NCBI RefSeq assembly: GCF_030867095.1
Contig: NC_081825.1
Location: forward strand, 46,738,501 to 46,802,500
Direction of reading: 5' to 3'
Length of the DNA stretch: 64,000 nucleotides
Origin: Alligator mississippiensis
Lineage: Eukaryota > Chordata > Crocodylia > Alligatoridae
Positions 1-64,000 of the stretch are shown here, one piece after another (positions within the stretch are counted from its first letter, which is position 1; the number at the start of each line of letters is the position of its first letter). The translations under genes and the position numbers were made by a program. A model generated the notes under the pieces. The model saw only the letters and a list, made by a program, of their open reading frames with translations. It was not told where the DNA came from and ran no database searches.

Positions 1-1195
1 TTCAAAATGGCCAAAACTGGTTTAGATAAATATGGTTGAATGTAGTATCAAACTTAACTAATTTGGGTCAAACCGGTTTATGGAACTTTTGTCCCAGACT
101 CCTTCCTGGTTTAAGTTAAATCTGACTCTCCCAGCATCCCAGCATGCTTTTCTGCCCTGGGCTGGGCTGGGCTATCTGCTCCAGAGAGCAGGACTGGCTC
201 CACCCCTCTCCTCCCTAGCTGGATCACTATCACTGCTTCAGCTGGCTGTGAAGGAGGTGGAGACTGCAGGCACAGCAGCATCTGCCTGACTTCCCCCTGC
301 CCCACCCCCACCTTGGTTCTCGTTGTTCACTTGCTGCTCACTGCTCCCCCCTGTACCCTCCTGCTTCCCCAGCACAGACCCCAGCCACATGGACCCTAGC
401 CAGCATGTGGCCACAGTTACGCCACCCCCATGCTAGCCTAATGCTGAGAGGTGTCTGTGTGTGTGTCTCCAATTTCACTGGGACAAAGGCAGAGAGAACA
501 CTATCTGCTTAGGGCTTTTTGGAGTTAATCAACAGGTCAGCTGGTAATGTCCCTACGTTCCTTCTTTGAAAAAAGCTGATTAAAAAGATCTTGGACTAAT
601 GAGAGAGGCTTTTTTTTTTTTTTTTTTTCCTGATGGGCTGATAAACTTTGTGCTATCTCTATCATCTCCCTGCTGGCTTGCTTGAAGTTGGCTGCAGGCA
701 GGATGAAGAAGCAGGGAGATGGAGATTGAAATGCTCAGTATCATCAACAGATGCATGTATTCCACACAAGTAGTCCTCCTCCCTCCCCCTTTGCCTTAAT
801 GCTAGCTGGGGGGCAGGGTCTGGCAACACTCCTGCCTCTTGGGCAGTGAGCTGGGAAAAGCCTGGTGAGAGCTGCTTCTCCCACCCCCTCCAGGCACACC
901 CCAGCTGGGAACTGTGAAGTCAGGGTGGGGGCTTAAACCCCTCCCTAATCAGAGCATCCTGCCAGGTCCTGGTCACCCCCTCCCCTTTAGCTCAGCACTT
1001 TAGAAGGGAAGGGAGGGATCATTCTAGCACCTCCTGGCTTCTAGCCTGAGCCACTGCAGGCATGTGCCTGCATTTCTTGATCCAAAAGTAAATCTCTATC
1101 CACTTGCAAATCTATTAAAGCTCTGCAGGTTAAACCTGCAGAGATTGAATTAATTCAGGCTTGGGCTTTTTGAATGTCTGTACCAAGCCTTTATG
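1..1195. repeat. Dispersed repeat, long copy A (cut by window start)
   Basis: This segment matches 62905-64000 in the same orientation over about 1 kb. Landmarks shared in order are ttcaaaatgg near the start, the 'gtcccagac' block, the 'tctccaatttcactgg' block near 463, the 'caacaggtcagctggtaatg' block near 530, and the 'ctagcctgagccact' block near 1041. The part after about 1020 also matches the 3' part of a short copy at 2465-2965, so the unit seems to end near 1195. A T22 run sits at about 610-628. A near-perfect palindrome of CTCTGCAGGTT with AACCTGCAGAG lies at 1121-1143. No coding frame is convincing. I see a non-autonomous interspersed element of unassigned family, possibly a DNA transposon derivative. 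Confidence 0.7.
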
Positions 1196-9704: not shown

Positions 9705-9774
9705 TTGGGGTTGGGATTTAATAGCAGCCTTCAAGTACCTAAAAGGTGATTCCAAAGAGGAAGGAGCTAGACTA
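9705..9774 (+). mobile_element. CR1 LINE, left piece of a copy split by an LTR element
   Basis: The short plus-strand piece reads as the CR1 block around LIAAFKYLKGDSKEEGARL. It stops exactly at the LTR element (9775) and resumes at 13632 with the next residues of the same block. The uninterrupted target would read gctagactattctca. Confidence 0.8.
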
Positions 9775-10528
9775 TGTGTGAGCCGGGTCGAACCCCGGGC
9801 CCTTTTCGTCACTCTGCACGCGGGCTGTGGCCGGCAGGCGGGTCGGAGAGGGCGGGCGCCGAGCTAGAATTAGGCACAGACACGTAACGGTTGATTTTAA
9901 GATTATTTACTTACACCAAGATGGTCGCGGTGCAGGCTGGAGACTTGCTTGAGTTGCAGTTACAACAGAAAACACGAACAATCACGTGGAGTTTGCTAGG
10001 CTCCACGCAGACAGAACTCCGGATGTCCAGGACAAGCGCGCATCAGAATAGAAAACTCATCAATACGTCTTATAGAAAGTTACCGCTTGAAGACGGGAAG
10101 AGGTGGGCGGTGGATCAGGCTGCCAAACTCCTCTGAGCAACACACAGGGTTTCTATTACCCTGCCGTGCACACCCAGAGTCCCCACAAGATGGATGCGGA
10201 GTCCTCTTCGGCTTGGGCGGAAACTGCTCAAGCCTCTTATACGGCTAGCAGGCCAATCGCTAGCCACCACGTGGGAATAATTTAGCACTAGCCAATTGCG
10301 GGGCACGAATTTGCATACGAATAGCGGGAACTCTTTTGCACTGTGCATTTCTGTGTTGCAAAGAAAATGCACCCTGCAAAGACAGCTGCAAAGTGACGGG
10401 AACACTCTCCTTTGCACGCGGGTTCTCTGTGCATCAGAACTCCTCCGTGCAATGAAGCTGTAAACCCACGGGGATAATTCTTAGTGCCGAAGCACACACA
10501 AAAAAAATCAGACCTTTGGGTCATGACA
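9775..10528 (-). repeat. 3' LTR (754 bp)
   Basis: Nearly identical to 12828-13631 but lacking a 44-bp tandem duplication and a ~12-bp GC-rich insertion near 12890. On the minus strand it has CCAAT-like boxes (GATTGGCC, CAATTGGC) just upstream of a TATA-like TATAAGAGG at about 10234-10243. U3 is therefore to the right and R-U5 to the left. It starts directly after the polypurine tract. Confidence 0.9.
10234..10243 (-). promoter_or_regulatory. TATA-like box of the 3' LTR
   Basis: The minus strand reads GTATAAGAGG, about 20-30 bp downstream of two CCAAT-like motifs. The same box occurs in the 5' LTR at about 13341-13350. Confidence 0.6.
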
Positions 10529-12809: not shown

Positions 12810-12827
12810 ATCCCATCCTCGTCACCA
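12810..12827 (-). promoter_or_regulatory. Primer binding site, serine-tRNA-like
   Basis: The plus strand reads atcccatcctcgtcacca directly before the 5' LTR edge. It matches the 3' end of vertebrate tRNA-Ser(GCU) as I know it (ATCCCATCCTCGTCG plus CCA) with one mismatch at the discriminator base. This places the 5' LTR at 12828-13631. Confidence 0.75.
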
Positions 12828-13631
12828 TGTGTGGGCCGGGTCGAACCCCGGGCCCTTTTCGTCGCTCTGCACGCGGGCTGCGGCCGGCAGCCCGGGCAGG
12901 CCGGGTCGGAGAGGGTGGGCGCCGAGCTAGAATTAGGCACAGACATGTAACGGTTGATTTTAAGATTATTTACTTACACCAAGATGGTCGCGGTGCAGGC
13001 TGGAGACTTGCTTGAGTTGTGGTTACAACAGAAAACACGAACAATCACATGGAGTTTGCTAGGCTCCATGCAGGCAGAACACAAACAATCACGTGGAGTT
13101 TGCTAGGCTCCACACAGACAGAACTCCGGATGTCCAGGACAAGCGCGCATCAGAATAGAAAACTCATCGATACGTCTTATAGAAAGTTACCGCTCGAAGA
13201 CGGGAAGAGGTGGGCGGTGGATCAGGCCGCCAAACTCCTCTGAGCAACACACAGGGTTTCTATTACTCTGCCGTGCACACCCAGAGTCCCCACAAGATGG
13301 ATGCGGAGTCCTCTTCGGCTTGGGCAGAAACTGCTCAAGCCTCTTATACGGCTAGCAGGCCAATCGCTAGCCACCACGTGGGAATAATTTAACACTAGCC
13401 AATTGCGGGGCACGAATTTGCATACGAAGAGCGGGAACTCTTTTGCACCATGCATTTCTGTGTTGCAAAGAAAATGCACCCTGCAAAGACAGCTGCAAAG
13501 TGGCGGGAATGCTCCTTTGCACGCGGGTTCTCTGTGCATCAGAACTCCTCCGTGCAATGAAGCTGTAAACCCACGGGGATAATTCTTAGTGCCAAAGCAC
13601 ATGCAAAAAATCAGACCTTTGGGTCATGACA
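12828..13631 (-). repeat. 5' LTR (804 bp)
   Basis: Partner of 9775-10528. Its extra length comes from a 44-bp tandem duplication at 13034-13121 and a GC-rich insertion of about 12 bp near 12890. The TATA-like box on the minus strand is at about 13341-13350. Confidence 0.9.
13034..13121. repeat. 44-bp tandem duplication in the 5' LTR
   Basis: Units 13034-13077 and 13078-13121 both contain ggagtttgctaggctcca. The 3' LTR has a single unit near 9976-10016. Confidence 0.85.
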
Positions 13632-31290: not shown

Positions 31291-31389
31291 AGATTCACAG
31301 ATTCATAGATTCATACATGTTAGGGTCAGAAGGGACCTCAATAGATCATCGAGTCTGACCCCCTGCATAGGCAGGAAAGAGTGCTGGGT

Positions 31390-32862
31390 CTAGATGAAAC
31401 CAGCTAAATGCATATCCAACCTCCTCTTGAAGACCCCCAGGGTAGGAGAGAGCACCACCTCCCTTGGAAGCCCATACCAGACCTTGGCCACTCTAACTGT
31501 GAAGAAGTTCTTCCTAATGTCCAATCTAAATCTGCTCTCTGCTAGCTTGTGGCCATTATTTCTTGTAACCCCCAGGGGCGCCTTGGTGAATAAATACTCA
31601 CCAATTCCCTTCTGCGCTCCCGTGATGAACTTATAGGCAGCCACAAGGTCGCCTCTCAACCTTCTATTACGGAGGCTGAAGAGGTCCAGGTGCCCCAGTC
31701 TCTCCTCATAGGTCTTGGTCTGGAAGCCCTTAACCATACGAGTGGCCCTTCTCTGGACCCTCTCCAGGTTATCCACATCCCTCTTGAAGTGCGGTGCCCA
31801 GAATTGCACCCAGTACTCCAACTGCGTTCTGACCAGCGCCCGATAGAGGGAAGTATCACCTCCTTGGATCTATTCATCATACATCTGCTGATGCACGATA
31901 AAGTGCCATTGGCTTTTCTGATGGCTTCGTCACACTGCCGACTCATGTTCATCTTGGAGTCCACTAGGACTCCAAGAGCCCTTTCCACCTCTGTGCCACC
32001 CAGCAGGTCATTCCCTAGGCTGTAGGTGTGCTGGACATTTTTCCTCCCTAGGTGCAGCACTTTGCATTTCTCCTTGTTGAACTGCATTCTGTTGTTTTCT
32101 GCCCACTTGTCCAACCTATCCAGGTCTGCTTGCAGCTGTTCCCTGCCCTCCGGCGTGTCCACTTCTCCCCATAGCTTTGTGTCATCCGCAAACTTGGACA
32201 GAGTGAACTCCCTCGTCCAAGTCGCTGATGAAGACATTCAAGAGTATCGGTCCAAGGACCGAGCCCTGCGGGACCCCACTGCCCACAACTTTCCAGGTCG
32301 AAACCGACCCATCCACCATGACTCTCTGGGTGCGACCCTCTAGCCAATTCACCACCCACCGGACTGTGTAGTCATCCAAGTCACAGCCTCTTCACTTGTT
32401 CACCGGTATGGGGTGGGATACCGTATCGAAGGCATTCCTGAAGTCTAAGTATACGACATCCACACCTCCTCCTGTGTCCAGGCATTTTGTAACCTGGTCA
32501 TAAAAAGAGACTAGATTAGTCAGACATGATCTGCCTTCTATGAACCCGTGCTGGTTTCCCCTCAGCATAATTTGTCCTGCTGGGCTCTCGCATATGTGAG
32601 TCTTGATAATTTTTTTCAAAGATTTTGCCAAGGATGGAGTTGAGACTGACTGGCCTATAGTGGCCCGGGTCCTCCTTCCTCCCCTTCTTGAAAATGGGGA
32701 CCACATTGGCCCTTTTCCAGGCCTCCGGGACTTGGCCCGTGCTCCATGAGTGTTCAAATATTCCCGCCTCTGGCTGTGCAATGATGACAGTGCCTTCAGT
32801 ACCCTCGGATGGAGCTTATCTGGGCCTGCTGACTTAAAGGCATCCAGTTCTTCCAAGAGACT
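31390..32862 (-). pseudogene. CR1 ORF2, RT core and C-terminus, frameshifted
   Basis: Pieces at 32856-32392, 32379-32182, 32237-31656 and 31821-31390 encode the RT core in changing frames. Visible blocks are [88 protein letters not shown] and the C-terminal NFFTVRVAKVWYGLPREVV. The run between FEK and IIK has seven A's on the minus strand (near 32610-32616) instead of six, causing a frameshift also seen in the 41-46 kb copy. Inactive. Confidence 0.88.
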
Positions 32863-34380
32863 CTACACCATCTCAGGCTCTACACATGGTAGTCTGGCTC
32901 CTTGCTGCTGCCTCTCTACAATCCCAGTAAGAGACTTGTCATGCCCCTCTCTTAAGAACACTGAGGCAAAGAACTCATTGAGGAGTTCAGCCTTGTCCCC
33001 CCTGTCCATCACCAATTGCTTCTGCCCATTTGGTAGGGGTCCTATTCCTCCCTGGGTCTTCCTTTTACTCCCTATATATTTAAAGAACAATTTCTTGTTG
33101 TCCTTTACTTGGGATGCCATCCTCAGCTCCATGGTAGCTTTGGCCCGTCTAACTGCCTCCCTACAAGCGTGAGCAGAGGAGGTATATTCGTCTTTGGTGA
33201 TCTCTCCCTGTTTCCACTTTTTATGTGCTCCCCTTTTGGCCCTTAGGCTGCCCTGGATTTCTCTGGTCAGCCAGGGAAGCCTCCTGGCCCCTTTCCCTCT
33301 TTTTCCTCGCATCGGGATCATCTCCCTTTGTGCCCAAAGGATCATTTCCTTAAGGCACAGCCACCCTTCTTGGGCTCCCATCACTTCAAAACTCCTACTC
33401 TGCAGTGTGTCCTTGACTAATTGCCTGAGTTCATTGAAATCAGCTTTCCTAAAGTCTAGCACTTTCACCCTACTAGTTACCTTACCCTCTTGATGTCTCA
33501 TGAAGAATTCTATTATTTGGTGATCACTGTCCCCCAGATGGCTACCGATCTGTAGGTCCCGTACCATGTCATCCCCCATTGCCAATACCAGATCCAGTAA
33601 GGCATTCCCCCTAGTGGGACCGTGTACCTCCTGCGTTAGGTGGAGGTCCTGTACACAGGATAGGAACCTGCGAGAATGGTGGGACCTTGCTGCCTGCGTC
33701 TCCCAGCAGATGTCTGGGTAGTTTAGGTCCCCCATGACTACTGCCTCCTTAGTTTTTATGGTCTCTGAGAGCTGCCTCAGGAGCCCCGAGACTAGTTCTT
33801 CCCCTTGGTGTGGGGGTCTGTAGCAGACCCCTACCACCAAACCCCTTTCTCCTTGCCCCCTATGTAACCTAACCCACAATCCTTCTACTTTCTCCTCCTT
33901 CAATTCCGTCTTGATAAGGTTCGATGTATATTGCTCATTGACATAGAGCGTAACCCCTCCCCCTTTCTTCCCCACCCTGTCCTTTCTGTACAGCCTATAA
34001 CCCTCAATATGTACCGCCCAGTTGTGAGACGAATCCCACCAGGTTTCTGTTAGCCCTACTAAGTCATAGGTGTTTTCTGCAAGCAGGAGTGGTAGTTCAT
34101 CCTGCTTGTTCCCCATGCTCCTAGCATTAGTATATAGGCACTTGAGCCCTGTGACTGGTGCCTTTGCTGCCCCCCCGCTCTGAATCCCAAGGGGCCCCTT
34201 ATTTCTTACCTTCTTGTTGCTTACCTGTGCTGTGCTGCTGGCCTCCCCATGGCTTGCAGGTTCCTGATGTTCTCCTTCTTCAGGCTGGGCTGTCCTTGTG
34301 GGTGCCACATGGTTTGGTGGTCCACAGCTTCCCCCGCCCTCATCTTCCCCTCCCCCTGACAAGCCTAGTTTAAAGCCCAC
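32863..34380 (-). pseudogene. CR1 ORF2, endonuclease and RT N-terminal part
   Basis: An uninterrupted 505-codon frame starts with GTG at 34378-34380 and has no ATG until after NARS. It contains the apurinic-type endonuclease with LKCLYTNARSMGNKQDEL, LVGLTETWWDSSHNW, GVCYRPPHQG, VVMGDLNYPDICW and SHLGDSDHQIIEF. A lysine/arginine-rich linker follows (LPWLTREIQGSLRAKRGAHK), then LLNEFFASVFLREGHDKSL. It ends at a TAG (32863-32865) replacing the glutamine codon found in the copies at 25-26 kb and 44 kb. The enzyme nicks target DNA and reverse transcribes the element RNA. It overlaps ORF1 in the -1 frame at the heptamer 34368-34374. Confidence 0.9.
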
Positions 34381-35066
34381 CGGAGGAGACTCTCCAAACT
34401 AGAAGAAAACACATGCTTACCTTTGGGGGATAGGTGAAGCCCATCCCAACTGAGCATGTCCCTCATCGTAATGTGCGGGTTGTTGTCCAGGAAGCCGAAG
34501 CCTGCCTTGAGACACCACTGCCGAAGCTGCCAGTTGGTCTCTCTGATGCAGTTCTCATGCCGTCTTCTGTGTCCGTTCACTGGTAGGATGGAAGAGAATA
34601 CCACCTGTGCACCGAACTCCCTCAGCACGCCACCCAGCGCACTGTAGTCCGCCATCAGGTGATCAGGGGTTCTCCTGGCCGCATCATTAGTACCCACATG
34701 GACTAGGACCATGGGGTAGTAATTGGTGGGCTTGATCCTGGCCTTGATTACTTCTGTCACATCCCGAATCTTTGTTCCGGGCAGGCAGTAGACCTCTCAT
34801 GTTGAGGGGTCCTGGTGACAGATGGGCCCTTCCATTCCTCTCAGGATGGAGTTGCCTATGACAAGCACTCGTTGCCTCCTCCTCTGGGTCCGCTTGGATC
34901 TCTTGACCTGTTTGGAGCATGGAGAGTGTGGTGTTGCTTCCTGCCCAAGGGTACTGGAGAAGACAAGCCCAAAAGCCGAGGGTCTCCAGGCCCTCCCACC
35001 AGAGATTGGCCAGGGCCCAGGGTGGTCACCATCGAGAGACAACATGGAGACCAGGGAAGACACCAT
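34365..35066 (-). pseudogene. CR1 ORF1, SGNH-esterase part
   Basis: Frames 35066-34797 and 34760-34365 belong to one ORF1. Upstream is a basic stretch and block I (VLVIGNSILRG). After a TGA (near 34797) come block III (VLVHVGTNDAARRTPDHL) and block V (SWDGLHLSPKGKHVF), ending ...RWALN then TAG at 34365-34367. SGNH esterase domains in ORF1 are known from several CR1-like LINEs; their role is thought to concern lipid or membrane contact, which is not proven. The final codons form the heptamer TTTAAAC just before the stop. Confidence 0.85.
34368..34374 (-). promoter_or_regulatory. Candidate -1 frameshift heptamer TTTAAAC between ORF1 and ORF2
   Basis: In the ORF1 frame it reads GCT TTA AAC then TAG. 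Shifting back one base gives TTT AAA CTA GGC, the ORF2 frame. Four G-tracts (34331-34356, loops 1, 7 and 1) follow on the minus strand. The same arrangement is in the second long copy at 42868-42874. Confidence 0.6.
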
Positions 35067-41814: not shown

Positions 41815-42877
41815 ATGGTGTCTATGAGGAGTGCTGCTAGGGCCTCTGCCCAGGGGAACAAGGCTACCCGGGGCAGGTCTGAGGCCTCCACCCAGACCGA
41901 GCCCATGGGGGAGCTGCTGTCCCCCTACCTCCTGGCCTGTGGGGGATCCCCAGCAGAGGGGGGGGGCAGATATTGGGGGCCCCCACACCTGTCCGGCAGG
42001 TGCCCATCTTAGGGCTCTGGAGGTGCAGGTGAGGGAGCTCCAGGAGGAGGTTAGCAGGCTGAGGGGGATCAGGGAGGTGGAGGATGAAATTGATAGTTAT
42101 TTCCTTTCCCTGCAGGCCCAGGCACCCAAGGAAGAAGCAGCCCGGGGAGTGCCCTCCACAACAGAGTGGCAGACGGTCACAGCCAGGACCGGAGCAGCTC
42201 GCAGCGAACCGGTACAAGCTTCTCCAGTCCGACTGGTGAACAGGTACGAGGCCCTGGCGACCCTGCAGGAGATGGAAGGGGAGGAGGAAACCCTTGGGCA
42301 AGAAGAAACACCACGTTCTTCATACTCCGAACAGCTCAAGAGATCCATGAGGACCCAGAGGAGGAGGCGACGAGTGCTCGTCATAGGCAACTCCATCCTG
42401 AGAGGTACAGAAGGGCCCATCTGTCGCCAGGACCCCTCGGCACGAGAGGTATGCTGCCTCCCTGGAGCAAAGATTCGGGATGTGACGGAGGTAATCCAGG
42501 CCAGGATCAAGGCCACCGATTACTACCCCATGGTCCTAGTCCATGTGGGTACTAATGATGCAGCCAGGAGAACCCCTGATCACCTGATGGCGGACTATAG
42601 TGCTCTGGGTGGCGTGCTGAAGGAGTTCGGTGCACAGGTGCTTTTGTCTTCCATCCTACCAGTGACTGGACGAGGAAGACGGCAGGAGAACTGCATCAGA
42701 GAGACCAACTGGCGGCTTCGGCAGTGGTGTCTCGAGGCAGGCTTCGTATTCCTGGACAATGACCCGCACAACACAACGAGGGACATGCTCAGCTGGGATG
42801 GGCTTCACCTGTACCCCAAAGGTAAGCGTGTGTTTTCTTCTAGGTTGGCAGATCTCCTCCGGTGGGCTTTAAACTAG
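41815..42877 (+). pseudogene. CR1 ORF1: coiled coil plus SGNH-esterase
   Basis: The main frame (41831-42877, 348 codons) holds a coiled coil (about residues 61-95, LEVQVRELQEEVSRLRGI), a basic stretch QRRRRR (176-181) and an SGNH hydrolase domain. Block I has GNS with Ser188, block II Gly212 in CLPG, block III GTND with Asn242, and block V SWDGLH with Asp323 and His326. All expected catalytic residues are present. The natural start is probably ATG 41815 in another frame: that frame reads a more protein-like N-terminus (STQTEPMGELLSPYLL) up to a G9-10 run near 41957-41966, where a slip would join it to the main frame. The frame ends ...RWALN, TAG 42875-42877. ORF1 is an RNA-binding partner in LINEs, and the esterase may act on lipids; this last point is inference. 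Confidence 0.88.
42868..42874 (+). promoter_or_regulatory. Candidate -1 ribosomal frameshift heptamer TTTAAAC
   Basis: ORF1 reads GCT TTA AAC then TAG (42875-42877). This is the X XXY YYZ type used by coronaviruses and others, in the correct phase. A -1 slip gives TTT AAA CTA GGC, exactly the ORF2 frame. ORF2 has no ATG before 43126. A G-rich block with four G-tracts follows 11 nt downstream (42886-42911). Confidence 0.65.
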
Positions 42878-42885
42878 GCTCGTCA

Positions 42886-42911
42886 GGGGGAGGGGCGTAC
42901 GAGGGCAGGGG
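42886..42911 (+). promoter_or_regulatory. G-quadruplex-capable block after the frameshift heptamer
   Basis: G-tracts of 5, 4, 3 and 4 with loops of 1, 7 and 2 bases. The copy on the minus strand at 34331-34356 keeps tracts of 5, 4, 3 and 5 with loops 1, 7 and 1. A weak stem CTCGT/ACGAG (42879-42883 with 42899-42903) is an alternative fold. Confidence 0.45.
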
Positions 42912-45900
42912 AAGCTGTGAACCACCAAACCAAGTGGCACCCACAAGAACAGCCCAGCCTGAAGAAGGAGAACATTGGAAACCTGAAAGCCATGGGGAGA
43001 CCAGCACTACAGAACAGGTAAGAAACAAGAAGGTAAGAAACAATGGGCCCCTTGGGACTCGGAGCGGGGGGACAGCAAAGGCACCAGTCGCAGGGCTCAA
43101 GTGCCTATATACTAATGCTAGGAGCATGGGGAACAAGCAGGATGAATTAGCGCTCCTGCTTGCACTAAACACCTATGACTTAGTAGGGCTAACAGAGACC
43201 TGGTGGGATTCATCCCATGACTGGGCGGTACATATTGAGGGCTATAGATTGTACAGAAAGGACAGGGTGGGGAAGAAAGGGGGAGGCGTTGCGCTGTATG
43301 TCAATGAGCAATATACATCAACCCTCATCAAGACAGAATACAAGGTTGAGGAAGTAGAAGGATTGTGGGTTAGGCTACATGGGGGGCAAGGAGAAAGGGA
43401 TTTGGTGGTAGGGGTCTGTTACAGACCCCCACACCAAGGGGAAGAAATAGATGTGGGGCTCCTGAGGCAACTCTCGGAGACCATAAAAGCTAAAGAGGCG
43501 GTAGTCATGGGAGACCTAAACTGCCCGGACATCTGCTGGGAGACGCAGACAGCAAGGTCCCATTGCTCACGCAGGTTTCTAACCTGTGTACAGGACCTCC
43601 ACCTGACACAGGAGGTGCATGGTCCCACTAGGGGGAACGCCATATTGGATCTGGTATTGGCAACAGAGGATGACATGATAGGGGACCTCCAGATCGGTAG
43701 CCATTTGGGAGACAGTGATCACCTAATAATAGAATTCAACATAAGACGTTGAGTGGGTAAGGTAACTAGTAGGGTGAAAGTGCTAGACTTTAGGAAAGCT
43801 GATCTCAATGCACTCAGGCGATTAGTCAAAGAAGCACTGCAGAGTAGGAGTTTTGAAGGGATGGGAGCCCAAGAAGGGTGGCTGTGCCTAAAGGAAACGA
43901 TCCTTCGGGCACAAAGCAAGACGATCCCCGAGCGAGGCAAAGAAGGGAAAGGGGCCAGGAGGCTTCCCTGGCTGACCACAGAAATCCAGGGCAGCCTAAG
44001 GGCCAAAAGGGGAGAACATAAAAAGTGGAAACAGGGTGAGATCACTAAAGATGAATATACCTCCTCTGCTTGTGCTTGTAGGGAGGCAGTTAGGCGGGCA
44101 AAAGCTACCATGGAGCTGAGGATGGCAACCCAAGTAAAAGACAACAAGAAATTGTTTTTTAGATATATTGGGAGTAAAAGGAAGGCCCAGGGAGGAATAG
44201 GACCACTGCTAAATGGGCAGAAACAATTGGTGACAGACAGGGGGGACAAGGCTGAACTCCTCAACGAGTTCTTTGCCTCAGTGTTCCTAAGTGAGGGGCA
44301 CAACAAGTCTCTCACTGGGGTTGTAGAGAGGCAGCAGCAAGGCGCCAGACTTCCATGCGTAGATCCTGAGATGGTGCAGAGTCATTTGGAAGAACTGGAT
44401 GTCTTTAAATCGGCAGGCCCGGATGGGCTCCATCCGAGGGTGCTGAAGGCACTGGCCGACATCATTGCAGAGCCACTGGCGGGAATATTCGAACGCTCGT
44501 GGCGCACGGGCCAAGTCCCGGAGGACTGGAAAAGGGCTAACGTGGTCCCCATTTTCAAAAAGGGGAGGAAGGAGGACCCGGGCAACTATAGGCCAGTCAG
44601 TCTCACCTCCATCCTTGGTAAAGTCTTTGAAAAAAATTATCAAGGCTCACATTTGTGAGAGCCCAGCAGGGCAAATTATGCTGAGGGGAAACCAGCACGG
44701 TTTTGTGGCGGGCAGATCGTGCCTGACCAATCTAGTCTTCTTCTATGACCAGGTTACGAAACGCCTGGACACAGGAGGGGTGGATGTCGTATACTTAGAC
44801 TTCAGGAAGGCCTTCGATACAGTATCCCACCCCATACTGGTGAACAAGCTCAGAGGCTGTGATGTGGATGACTACACAGTCCGGTGGGTGGCGAATTGGC
44901 TAGAGGGTCGCACTCAAAGAGTCGTGGTGGATGGGTCGGTCTCAACCTGGAAGGGTGTGGGCAGTGGGGTCCGGCAGGGCTCGGTCCTTGGACCGATACT
45001 CTTTAGTGTCTTCATCAGTGACTTGGACGAGGGAGTCAAATGTACTTTGTCCAAGTTTGCAGATGACACAAAGCTATGGGGAAAAGTGGACATGCCGGAG
45101 GGCAGGGAACAGCTGCAAGCAGACCTGGATAGGTTGGACAAGTGGGCAGAAAACAACAGGATGCAGTTCAACAAGGAGAAATGCAAAGTGCTGCATCTAG
45201 GGAGGAAAAATGTCCAGCACACCTACAGCCTAGGGAATGACCTGCTGGGTGGCACAGAGGTGGAAAGGGATCTTGGAGTCCTAGTGGACTCCAAGATGAA
45301 CATGAGCCGGCAGTGTGACGAAGCCATCAGAAAAGCCAATGGCACTTTATCGTGCATCAGCAGATGCATGACAAATAGGTCCAGGGAGGTGATACTTCCC
45401 CTCTATAGGGCGCTGGTCAGACCGCAGTTGGAGTACTGCGTGCAATTCTGGGCGCCACACTTCAAGAAGGATGCGGATAACCTGGAGAGGGTCCAGAGAA
45501 GGGCCACTCGTATGGTCAAGGGCCTGCAGACCAAGCCCTACGAGGAGAGACTAGAGAAACTGGACCTTTTCAGCCTCCGCAAGAGAAGGTTGAGAGGCGA
45601 CCTTGTGGCTGCCTAGAAGTTCATCACGGGGGCACAGAAGGGAATTGGTGAGTATTTATTCACCAAGGCGCCCCAGGGGATTACAAGAAATAATGTCCAC
45701 AAGCTAGCAGAGAGCAGATTTAGATTGGACATTAGGAAGAACTTCTTCACAGTTCGAGTGGCCAAGGTCTGGAACGGGCTCCCAGGGGAGGTGGTGCTCT
45801 CCCCTACCCTGGGGGTCTTCAAGAGGAGGTTAGATGAGTATCTATCTGGGGTCATCTAGACCCAGCACTCTTTCCTGCTTATGCAGGGGGTTGGACTCGA

Positions 45901-45950
45901 TGATGTATTGAGGTCCCTTCCGACCCTAACATCTATGAATCTATGAATCT

Positions 45951-47463
45951 ACCTCATTCCTCTGCATGTCCTTTCATCCCAGAGTGCAAGGCAAGCCCAG
46001 GGAAGGGTGTTGGCTGGGTGTGGCTGGAGGTGCAATGTCAAAGCATCTACTTGAAGGTAGGGAGTGCCAATGAAGAGTGGGCTAATTTGTAATGACAGGG
46101 AAACTCACGTGAAAAGGTCTAACTTTAGACTACACATAATTTTTAGCCCAATGTGCAAAAGGACACCTAGAGGTTCCTATTGCACTAAGCTTGATTCTAT
46201 CTACCTAATGAAACACATACAGTTTGTATGCACCTCTAGTCCTACAAGTACAAGAGTACAGTAAATGAAAGATCCTTACTGCCAACTAGTTTGGGAAAGC
46301 CTGCTACCTAGGGGAGGAAGTAACAGAGATAACAAGAGAGAAAAGATGAAGGCAAAGAACAGAGCTATTGGTCAACTTGGATGCGTCAGTGGACTTTTTT
46401 TATTCTGCAAGAATAAGATTTTTTCCTGAGTGTTAAACTAAACCATCAATGACTCCTATCAATAAAGAAGTAAAACAGGTAAAAATGGAATGTGAAAGTG
46501 ATCCATTATTAGTATGCTAAAATTAAGTCTGCATTTTACCTCATTCTATTTATTACACCTGTTGTGCACCATGTTCATTGATACAGTCCAACTTGTTTGT
46601 ACCATTCTGATATAAACTCTAATAATCCAGATTTGGCATTGCTTTTACTTACCCAAGTTTGAGTGTAGTAGTGAATCTTATACTATGTTAATACATTCAC
46701 TAGTTTGGCTTTAATCATTACATTGCCTGATGACATACCTTGCAGAAGGCCTAATTCTATATTCTCTATGCAAGAAAAATTTCCATTGATGTAAATGGGA
46801 CACATTTTTGCTTATAAAACAGATTTTGTTTCTTAAGGCAAAACTCTTCTTCCACACAGTCAGTTGATTATGCTCTATGTCTGTGAAGTGCAGGGTAAAA
46901 ATAATGTTAAAATAAAGTTCATATTTTATCTTGCAGATATGCATAGTCCTCCTGAGTCTGGAGAAAGTTTAGCAGTTTCTCCCAAAAGTAATTCTACTGG
47001 AGAGCCCATCTATGCCCGTTGCTTAATTCAATGATTGGCAAAGTTTCAGCAGTGCAGGATTGTGCCTATAAATGAAAAAAAAAAAAAATGAAAAAAAGCC
47101 ATGCTAGTTTCAGAGGTTTGTTTAGGGATATTTTATATGATCAATTTTATACTTAACACTTACTGATTGATAGCCCTTTTTCTTTCAAAGTATTTTACTA
47201 ATATTAACTAATTAGTCAAAGGATAAAACTCATTTTTCAACAATGTTTCAAGAGATTAGTGTATATTTTTCTAATGGTTGTTACTATAAGTCTCTTTAAG
47301 AGGTAGCCCAGGAAGTTAATGTTAATCATAGAGGTATCCATTTTTCTAGAGGTACCATTTTTCAGATTTTTTCTAGATCATTAGATATGCAGTTATGTAT
47401 ATATGTGTAGTTGCTATGTAGTTATGCATAAACAATTAATATACTCTACATCTCATACATATG
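45951..47463. other. AT-rich intergenic DNA
   Basis: No gene or recognised element; A runs near 47073-47086. Confidence 0.5.
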
Positions 47464-62904: not shown

Positions 62905-64000
62905 TCGGGGCTAGGGACAGAAGTTATACATACACAAGTATAAGTGATCAGAAACTGGTTTAAACCTTTAAAAGAACATATGTTCAGTGCACGTAAACCA
63001 GTTTCAAAATGGCTGAAACTCGTTTAAATGGCTGAAACTCATTCAACCTTGTTGAATGTAGTATGAGACTTAACTGATTTGGGCCAAACTGGTTTATAGA
63101 ACTTCTGTCCCAGACCCCTTCCTGGTTTAAGTTAAATCAGAGTCCCCCAGCATCCCACATGCTTTGCAGCTCTGGGCTGGGCTGTGTGCTCCAGAGAGCA
63201 AGGCTGGCCCTGCCTCTCTACTCTATAGCTGGAGTACACTGCTCTAGCTGGATGAGAAAGAGGTGGCAACTACAGGCACAGCTGTGTTTGCCTGGCTTCC
63301 CCCTGCCCCAACCCACCCTTGCTGCTCCCTGCAGAAGCAGGGATCACCCCCCACCCCCACTCTCCCAAAGCACAGACTCCAGCCACACAGACCCTAGCCA
63401 GCATCTGGTCATGGTCATGACACCCCCATGCTAGCTAAAGCTGAGAGGTGTCTGTGTGTGCGTCTCCAATTTCACTGGAACAAAGGCAGACAAAACAGTG
63501 TCCACCTAAGGCTTTCTACAGCTAATCAACAGGTCAGCTGGTAATGTCCCTCTGTTCCTTCCTTGGAAAAAGCTGTTTAAGATCTTCAACTAATGATAGA
63601 GGCTTTTTTTTATTATTATTCTTGATGGGCTGATAAACTTTGCTGGCTTGCTAGAAGTTCACTGATGATAGTATGAAGTATCAGGGAGATAGAGATTGAA
63701 AGCTCAGTATCATCAACAGATACATGTTTTGCCTCATAGTGTTAGTTGGAGGCTGGGGTCTGGCAACACTCCTGCCCCTTGAGCAGTGAGCCAGGAAAAG
63801 CTTGGGACTGTGCAGGCAGGATGGGGGTTTACACCCCTCCCTAATCAGAGCATCCTGCCAGAGCCTGGGCATGCCCCTCTCTCCTCACAGTTTAGCAGTA
63901 TGGAATGGAAGGAGGGGCTCACTCTAGCACCCTCCAGCTTCTAGCCTGAGCCACTAAAGGAATGGGGGGAGGGTGGAGTAGTGGAAGACCCTGGCATTCT
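62905..64000. repeat. Dispersed repeat, long copy B (cut by window end)
   Basis: Same orientation as copy A (1-1195) and copy C (2465-2965). It keeps the left end missing from copy A (agtataagtgatcagaaact, 'cgtaaaccagtttcaaaatgg') and then follows copy A through the 'tctccaatttcactgg' (63462) and 'caacaggtcagctggtaatg' (63528) blocks to about 63960. It is about 100 bp shorter than copy A in the comparable part. No coding frame. The near-identity of both ends of the window is due to this family. Confidence 0.7.

Follow-up and report, generated by a model that had tools for sequence, protein, structure and literature searches.

Several CR1-type LINE copies lie within the window (the whole 64,000-nt stretch of Alligator mississippiensis DNA analyzed here), and the subject here is how ORF2 of a CR1 element is translated. 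A -1 slip of the ribosome at the end of ORF1 would explain production of the ORF2 protein from a frame that lacks a usable start signal. Judging from sequence, we consider it probable (roughly 0.7) that programmed -1 ribosomal frameshifting at TTTAAAC yields CR1 ORF2 as an ORF1-ORF2 fusion. Papers are cited below by PMC number, in each case for the part of the paper that was covered.

The CR1 copies of the window and their ORF1/ORF2 junction

The copy under study, copy A, lies on the + strand with its 3' end near 45951. Its ORF1 frame encodes a C-terminal esterase (Pfam PF13472, E 7.9e-10; PDB 4c1b, E 6.7e-13, an entry titled as an ORF1-encoded protein), and its ORF2 encodes an AP endonuclease (Pfam PF03372 and PF14529) and a reverse transcriptase (PF00078, E 1.5e-24). 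The copy is decayed: ORF2 contains an internal TGA (43750 to 43752), its frame breaks further on, and the ORF1 frame lacks a Met close to its 5' end. At approximately 45930 to 45951 the element ends in ATCTATGA repeats, with no poly(A). Short tandem repeats as the 3' end in place of poly(A) are a mark of CR1. An esterase ORF1 (type IV) is among the ORF1 types of CR1-clade elements and is accompanied there, as in copy A, by an AP endonuclease and a reverse transcriptase (PMC4120745; PDB 4c1b). From its ORF2 domains, its esterase ORF1, and its 3' repeats, copy A is classified as a CR1-clade non-LTR retrotransposon. The features of copy A, and the junction of a second copy, are as follows.

41828 to 42877, + strand: ORF1 frame of copy A (stop to stop), with a C-terminal SGNH/GDSL esterase (PF13472, PDB 4c1b)
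42841 to 42843, + strand: last ORF2-frame stop (TAG) before the heptamer, which bounds the ORF1/ORF2 overlap (27 nt before the heptamer in 22 of the 23 junctions of the first sample)
42868 to 42874, + strand: slippery heptamer TTTAAAC (present in 23/23 and 9/10 junctions sampled without regard to the heptamer)
42875 to 42877, + strand: ORF1 stop TAG, adjoining the heptamer (read from the sequence)
42886 to 42911, + strand: four G-tracts (G4Hunter 2.31 and regular-expression counts)
42844 to 43752, + strand: first segment of the ORF2 frame, linker and AP endonuclease, up to the internal TGA (PF03372, PF14529)
43126 to 43128, + strand: first ORF2-frame ATG, directly 3' of the NARS motif (read from the sequence)
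43753 to 45859, + strand: remainder of ORF2, with the reverse transcriptase and the C-terminal part, broken into two frames in copy A (PF00078, E 1.5e-24)
34368 to 34374, - strand: heptamer of the copy B junction, the second junction-bearing copy in the window

ORF1 of copy A closes with GCT TTA AAC TAG (42866 to 42877), ending ...RWALN*, and the heptamer within it stands in the X XXY YYZ phase, such that the -1 frame over it, TTT AAA CTA GGC, is the ORF2 frame. That frame opens 24 nt 5' of the heptamer. The original prediction had described the heptamer, its phase, the adjoining TAG, and this short opening, and all of them are confirmed in the copy A sequence. It had also held that no ORF2 ATG precedes the endonuclease, and this stands: the first, at 43126, lies within the endonuclease, immediately after the NARS codons (43114 to 43125). 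By our own arithmetic, the chance that any in-phase XXXYYYZ heptamer would fall within an overlap of 11 codons is approximately 1.5%. The 22 nt at 42822 to 42843 (GTAAGC...TTCTAG) look like a tiny intron, ending where the ORF2 frame opens.

Copy B (31299 to 34952, minus strand) is 90.7% identical to copy A over the aligned part, and its junction carries the heptamer in the same phase and a 15-mer identical to that of copy A. A scan of the window with three mismatches allowed gave 3 matches, against 2.43 expected, two of which were exact. Differences between copies A and B, counted by codon position, show a bias in both the endonuclease (21/14/35) and ORF1 (14/17/25). The linker has no such bias (6/9/8), and coding constraint was not seen there between the two copies of the window.

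Conservation of the junction among CR1 copies of one genome

In the genome that contains the window, which comprises 2.35 Gb in 195 contigs, the 13-mer GCTTTAAACTAGG occurs 5064 times (2581 + 2483), against 3 occurrences (1 + 2) of the reversed control. Since this count alone shows only abundance, samples were drawn independently of the heptamer. For the first, loci were chosen by similarity to the copy A endonuclease, with the heptamer ignored; 150 of 51443 candidates were scored and 30 loci were cut out, of which 7 are truncated at the 5' end; the junction is retained in the other 23, including copy A. All 23 contain TTTAAACTAGG; for comparison, the invariant share is 65% among junction columns and 20% among 7-column windows. 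From the heptamer to NARS, neither a Met nor a stop is found in any of the 19 readable copies. The last ORF2-frame stop lies 27 nt before the heptamer in 22 of the 23; in the one exception the open frame extends further upstream, and this copy alone has an ORF2-frame ATG 5' of the heptamer. The linker ATGs of the 23 copies all lie outside the ORF2 frame, the commonest three being in the ORF1 frame, two of these with a strong context. Among the 150 scored endonuclease matches, 37 (counted by eye) have a stop-to-stop ORF2 frame of 1004 to 1006 aa, the length to be expected of a frame that usually starts at the -27 stop, and this proportion of open frames suggests that the CR1 group of the window was active fairly recently in the source species.

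The second sample was drawn with the endonuclease of lineage V, which has 56% protein identity to that of copy A. Here 150 of 45310 candidates were scored, and 421-base stretches of 20 of them were taken, ten being truncated below the heptamer and ten keeping it. TTTAAAC is present in nine of the ten junction-bearing copies, the exception being L112 (TCTAAAT), and the ORF1 stop is altered in two of the ten (TAA in L103 and CAG in L113). A second junction in L048, met by accident, reads TTTAAAT. When the majority sequences of the two samples (23 and 10 copies) are compared, the heptamer and TAGG are identical in all 11 columns, as are the 15 nt before the heptamer (15/15), and ORF1 from -120 to -16 agrees in 97 of 105 columns; downstream, agreement goes from 16/20 (+11 to +31) and 50/60 (+31 to +91) to 34/109 (+91 to +200). 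The second sample is only moderately independent of the first, because the two lineages differ little around the junction. Within this one genome, and for the two groups sampled without use of the heptamer, the heptamer is conserved beyond its flanks.

A further 69 sites were picked by the 13-mer itself and comprise 36 junctions of the window's own group, 31 of other groups, 1 probable chance match, and 1 internally deleted copy. The 31 were placed by hand into six groups of 15, 4, 4, 3, 4, and 1 copies, the linkers of which differ around a common core that gives ALN* at the end of ORF1 and FKLG in ORF2. In 23 of these 31 copies the last ORF2-frame stop lies 18 nt 5' of the heptamer; an ORF2-frame ATG precedes the heptamer in 3 of the 31. 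Linkers could be traced in 11 copies, with a Met in 3 and none in 8. As five of the seven groups are known through the 13-mer only, and their junctions were chosen by it, these sites show that the signal is present in each group and not how often it is kept. In most copies the ORF2 frame opens only 15 or 24 nt ahead of the heptamer, so entry must occur within the overlap or downstream of it. The heptamer, its phase, the adjacent stop, the short overlap, and the missing ORF2 ATG are thus found in many CR1 copies of the genome, divergent lineages included.

Conservation across groups takes the form of GGGC-TTTAAAC-TAGG and, starting 10 to 11 nt past the heptamer, a G-rich motif, after which it fades. 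In copy A the G-tracts are at 42886 to 42890, 42892 to 42895, 42903 to 42905, and 42908 to 42911, the first starting 11 nt past the heptamer; the first two are the counterpart of the cross-group motif, and the last two are confined to the window's own group. In the 31 copies of other groups, G is found at offsets 11 to 14 in 77 to 94% and at offsets 17, 18, and 20 in 77 to 90%, with only 35% at offset 19. Compared by eye, the groups largely retain the G-tracts of the motif but encode different amino acids there, a hint that the RNA itself has a role.

The original prediction had suggested that the G-tracts could form a quadruplex, with a stem as the alternative. The four-tract pattern is present in 33 of the 36 own-group copies, but it occurs in 0 of the 31 others, and we reject the quadruplex as a general stimulator. 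Folding of the junctions for plain stems gave none more stable than shuffled sequences (z of -0.8 to 1.6 and -0.6 to 1.3). A search of Rfam returned a single match, below threshold and on the opposite strand.

Routes by which ORF2 could be translated

In the frameshift reading, slippage would take place on the two codons that precede the ORF1 stop. The majority of ribosomes would terminate at the adjoining TAG and release ORF1p, while a minority would slip back by one base, read TTT AAA CTA, and proceed through the linker, the endonuclease, and the reverse transcriptase; the product would be a fusion of the esterase-bearing ORF1 with ORF2, comparable to retroviral Gag-Pol. We infer that such slippage occurs and is the main route to ORF2p, presumably promoted by the adjacent stop and by the G-rich motif approximately 10 nt downstream. 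On mammalian ribosomes, UUUAAAC ranks with the shiftiest heptamers (PMC5009743), and the most conserved stretch of the junction is an efficient slippery site in the phase needed. Counted against it are the lack of a stem, the distance of 10 to 11 nt to the G-rich motif, which is beyond the 5 to 8 nt at which stimulators usually lie downstream of a slippery site (PMC3919603), and a linker with no codon-position bias, along with the altered heptamers of L112 and L048, the upstream ORF2-frame ATGs (3/31 and 1/23), and the linker Met residues (3/11).

The missing stem and the variable linker would suit ribosomes that terminate at the TAG and then reinitiate, or that initiate internally without an AUG, at a non-AUG codon of the linker; ORF2p would then be unfused, and the conserved core, which takes in the stop (TAGG), would be a coupling signal. 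AUG-independent initiation is also deemed the more likely route for human L1 ORF2 (PMC5009743). However, what is most conserved here is a slippery heptamer in exactly the phase required for slippage. Moreover, all linker ATGs of the first sample lie outside the ORF2 frame, the three most frequent being in that of ORF1, so the first AUGs to reach a scanning ribosome would be in the wrong frame. We regard this route as unlikely, yet as a live rival. The core might alternatively be kept purely for the residues that it encodes in both frames, with the slippery site as a by-product, and the 13-mer does encode ALN* and FKLG, which recur in all of the groups picked out by it. Selection on FKLG nevertheless requires that it be translated, and since the ORF2 frame is closed 18 to 27 nt upstream in most copies, dual coding still needs entry at or just before the heptamer; as a sufficient account it is very improbable. 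Least probable of all is that ORF2 is translated from a spliced RNA that joins a donor-like site in the 5' untranslated region (AAAG/GTAAGT, 41552/41553) to the acceptor-like tract ending at 42843. This tract ends precisely where the ORF2 frame opens, and similar tracts are found in the main group and in groups III, IV, and V, but groups I and II have none, the tract encodes ORF1 residues, and no AUG is seen from 41380 to the donor-like site. Removal of 42822 to 42843 as a mini-intron would, by our own arithmetic, lead into the third frame.

We also offer a more specific and tentative proposal, which we hold to be doubtful. The CR1 signal would have no stem and would consist of UUUAAAC, the immediate stop, and, at an almost constant spacing of approximately 10 nt, the G-rich motif (about GGGGGAYGGGGA). 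The motif would act through an atypical quadruplex or by binding a protein, for which ORF1p and a host G-tract binder are candidates, and the output of ORF2 as a Gag-Pol-like ORF1-ORF2 fusion would thereby be regulated. In this proposal the signal might date back to the divergence of the CR1 lineages.

Precedents and related elements

The same heptamer in the same phase (U_UUA_AAC) is used at coronavirus ORF1a/1b and in gag-pol of retroviruses and some LTR elements, and these canonical -1 systems share with the CR1 junction a short overlap from which a minority of ribosomes enters the polymerase frame (PMC5009743). Unlike them, CR1 is a non-LTR element, its stop adjoins the heptamer, and no stem was found 5 to 8 nt downstream. 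The -2/-1 frameshifting of arteriviruses likewise depends on a short motif without predicted structure, whose spacing is fixed at 11 nt downstream; that motif, however, is C-rich, is bound by nsp1beta and PCBP, and serves another slip site, whereas the motif of CR1 is G-rich (PMC7939443). In synthetic reporters, a quadruplex placed after UUUAAAC raises -1 shifting, to approximately 7% at best, but the optimum spacer is 6 to 8 nt, against 10 to 11 in CR1 (PMC3919603), and the four-tract motif is absent from the other CR1 groups. Neither precedent is an exact fit. Among non-LTR elements, HeT-A gag and human L1 ORF2 also have unorthodox translation, although HeT-A shifts within gag and L1 is thought to use AUG-independent initiation rather than -1 slippage (PMC5009743).

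No title or abstract returned by the literature searches proposes -1 frameshifting for CR1, and these searches gave no account of CR1 ORF2 translation. The word "frameshift" is absent from the covered parts of four CR1/LINE papers (PMC4316615, PMC4120745, PMC3905857, and PMC8665684), and the covered part of a 2016 review of recoding discusses HeT-A and human L1 without mention of CR1 (PMC5009743). The founding CR1 papers (Kapitonov and Jurka 2003; Haas 1997; Kajikawa 1997) fall outside this coverage, so an earlier mention is possible and novelty is provisional. While -1 frameshifting at UUUAAAC is already known, a LINE that joins its ORF1 and ORF2 in this way, with a stop adjoining the heptamer and a G-rich motif standing in for a stem, would provisionally be new.

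If the frameshift reading is correct, a major group of vertebrate LINEs sets its ratio of enzyme to ORF1 protein by recoding, as retroviruses do; ORF2p is predicted to be a fusion that carries the esterase; and searches for an AUG-started ORF2 misjudge the intactness of copies. A conserved -1 signal would also make CR1 ORF2 translation cheap to test. A G-rich, stem-less signal would bear on the natural quadruplex-stimulated frameshift that the 2016 review expected, none being known according to the part covered (PMC5009743).

Relatives of the copy A ORF2 endonuclease were absent from viral contigs, plasmids, and phages, and a search with a piece of the reverse transcriptase gave none in viral contigs. 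Against GTDB contigs, the reverse transcriptase piece matched four distant LINEs. Two of these, L001 (303 to 3509 of JAEMPT010000016.1) and L002 (JAEMPM010000119.1), are of an animal-type LINE in metagenome-assembled genomes (MAGs) labeled Thermoprotei and Thermocrinis. In L001, ORF1 and ORF2 share one frame with a single TGA (1230 to 1232) between them, and the first Met of ORF2 is at the start of the endonuclease, an arrangement that would suit stop readthrough. The other two, L003 (JACDET010000042.1) and L004 (PIVJ01000154.1), are LINE-like reverse transcriptases in contigs labeled as bacterial MAGs and are probably eukaryotic contamination.

Two other sets of repeats were observed in the window. 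Positions 9771 to 10505 and 12824 to 13610 are two copies, 92 to 98% identical, approximately 3.1 kb apart. The ends of the window (35 to 1064 and 63051 to 63964) carry a series of direct repeats, 78 to 90% identical and in register approximately 63 kb apart, possibly an old segmental duplication.
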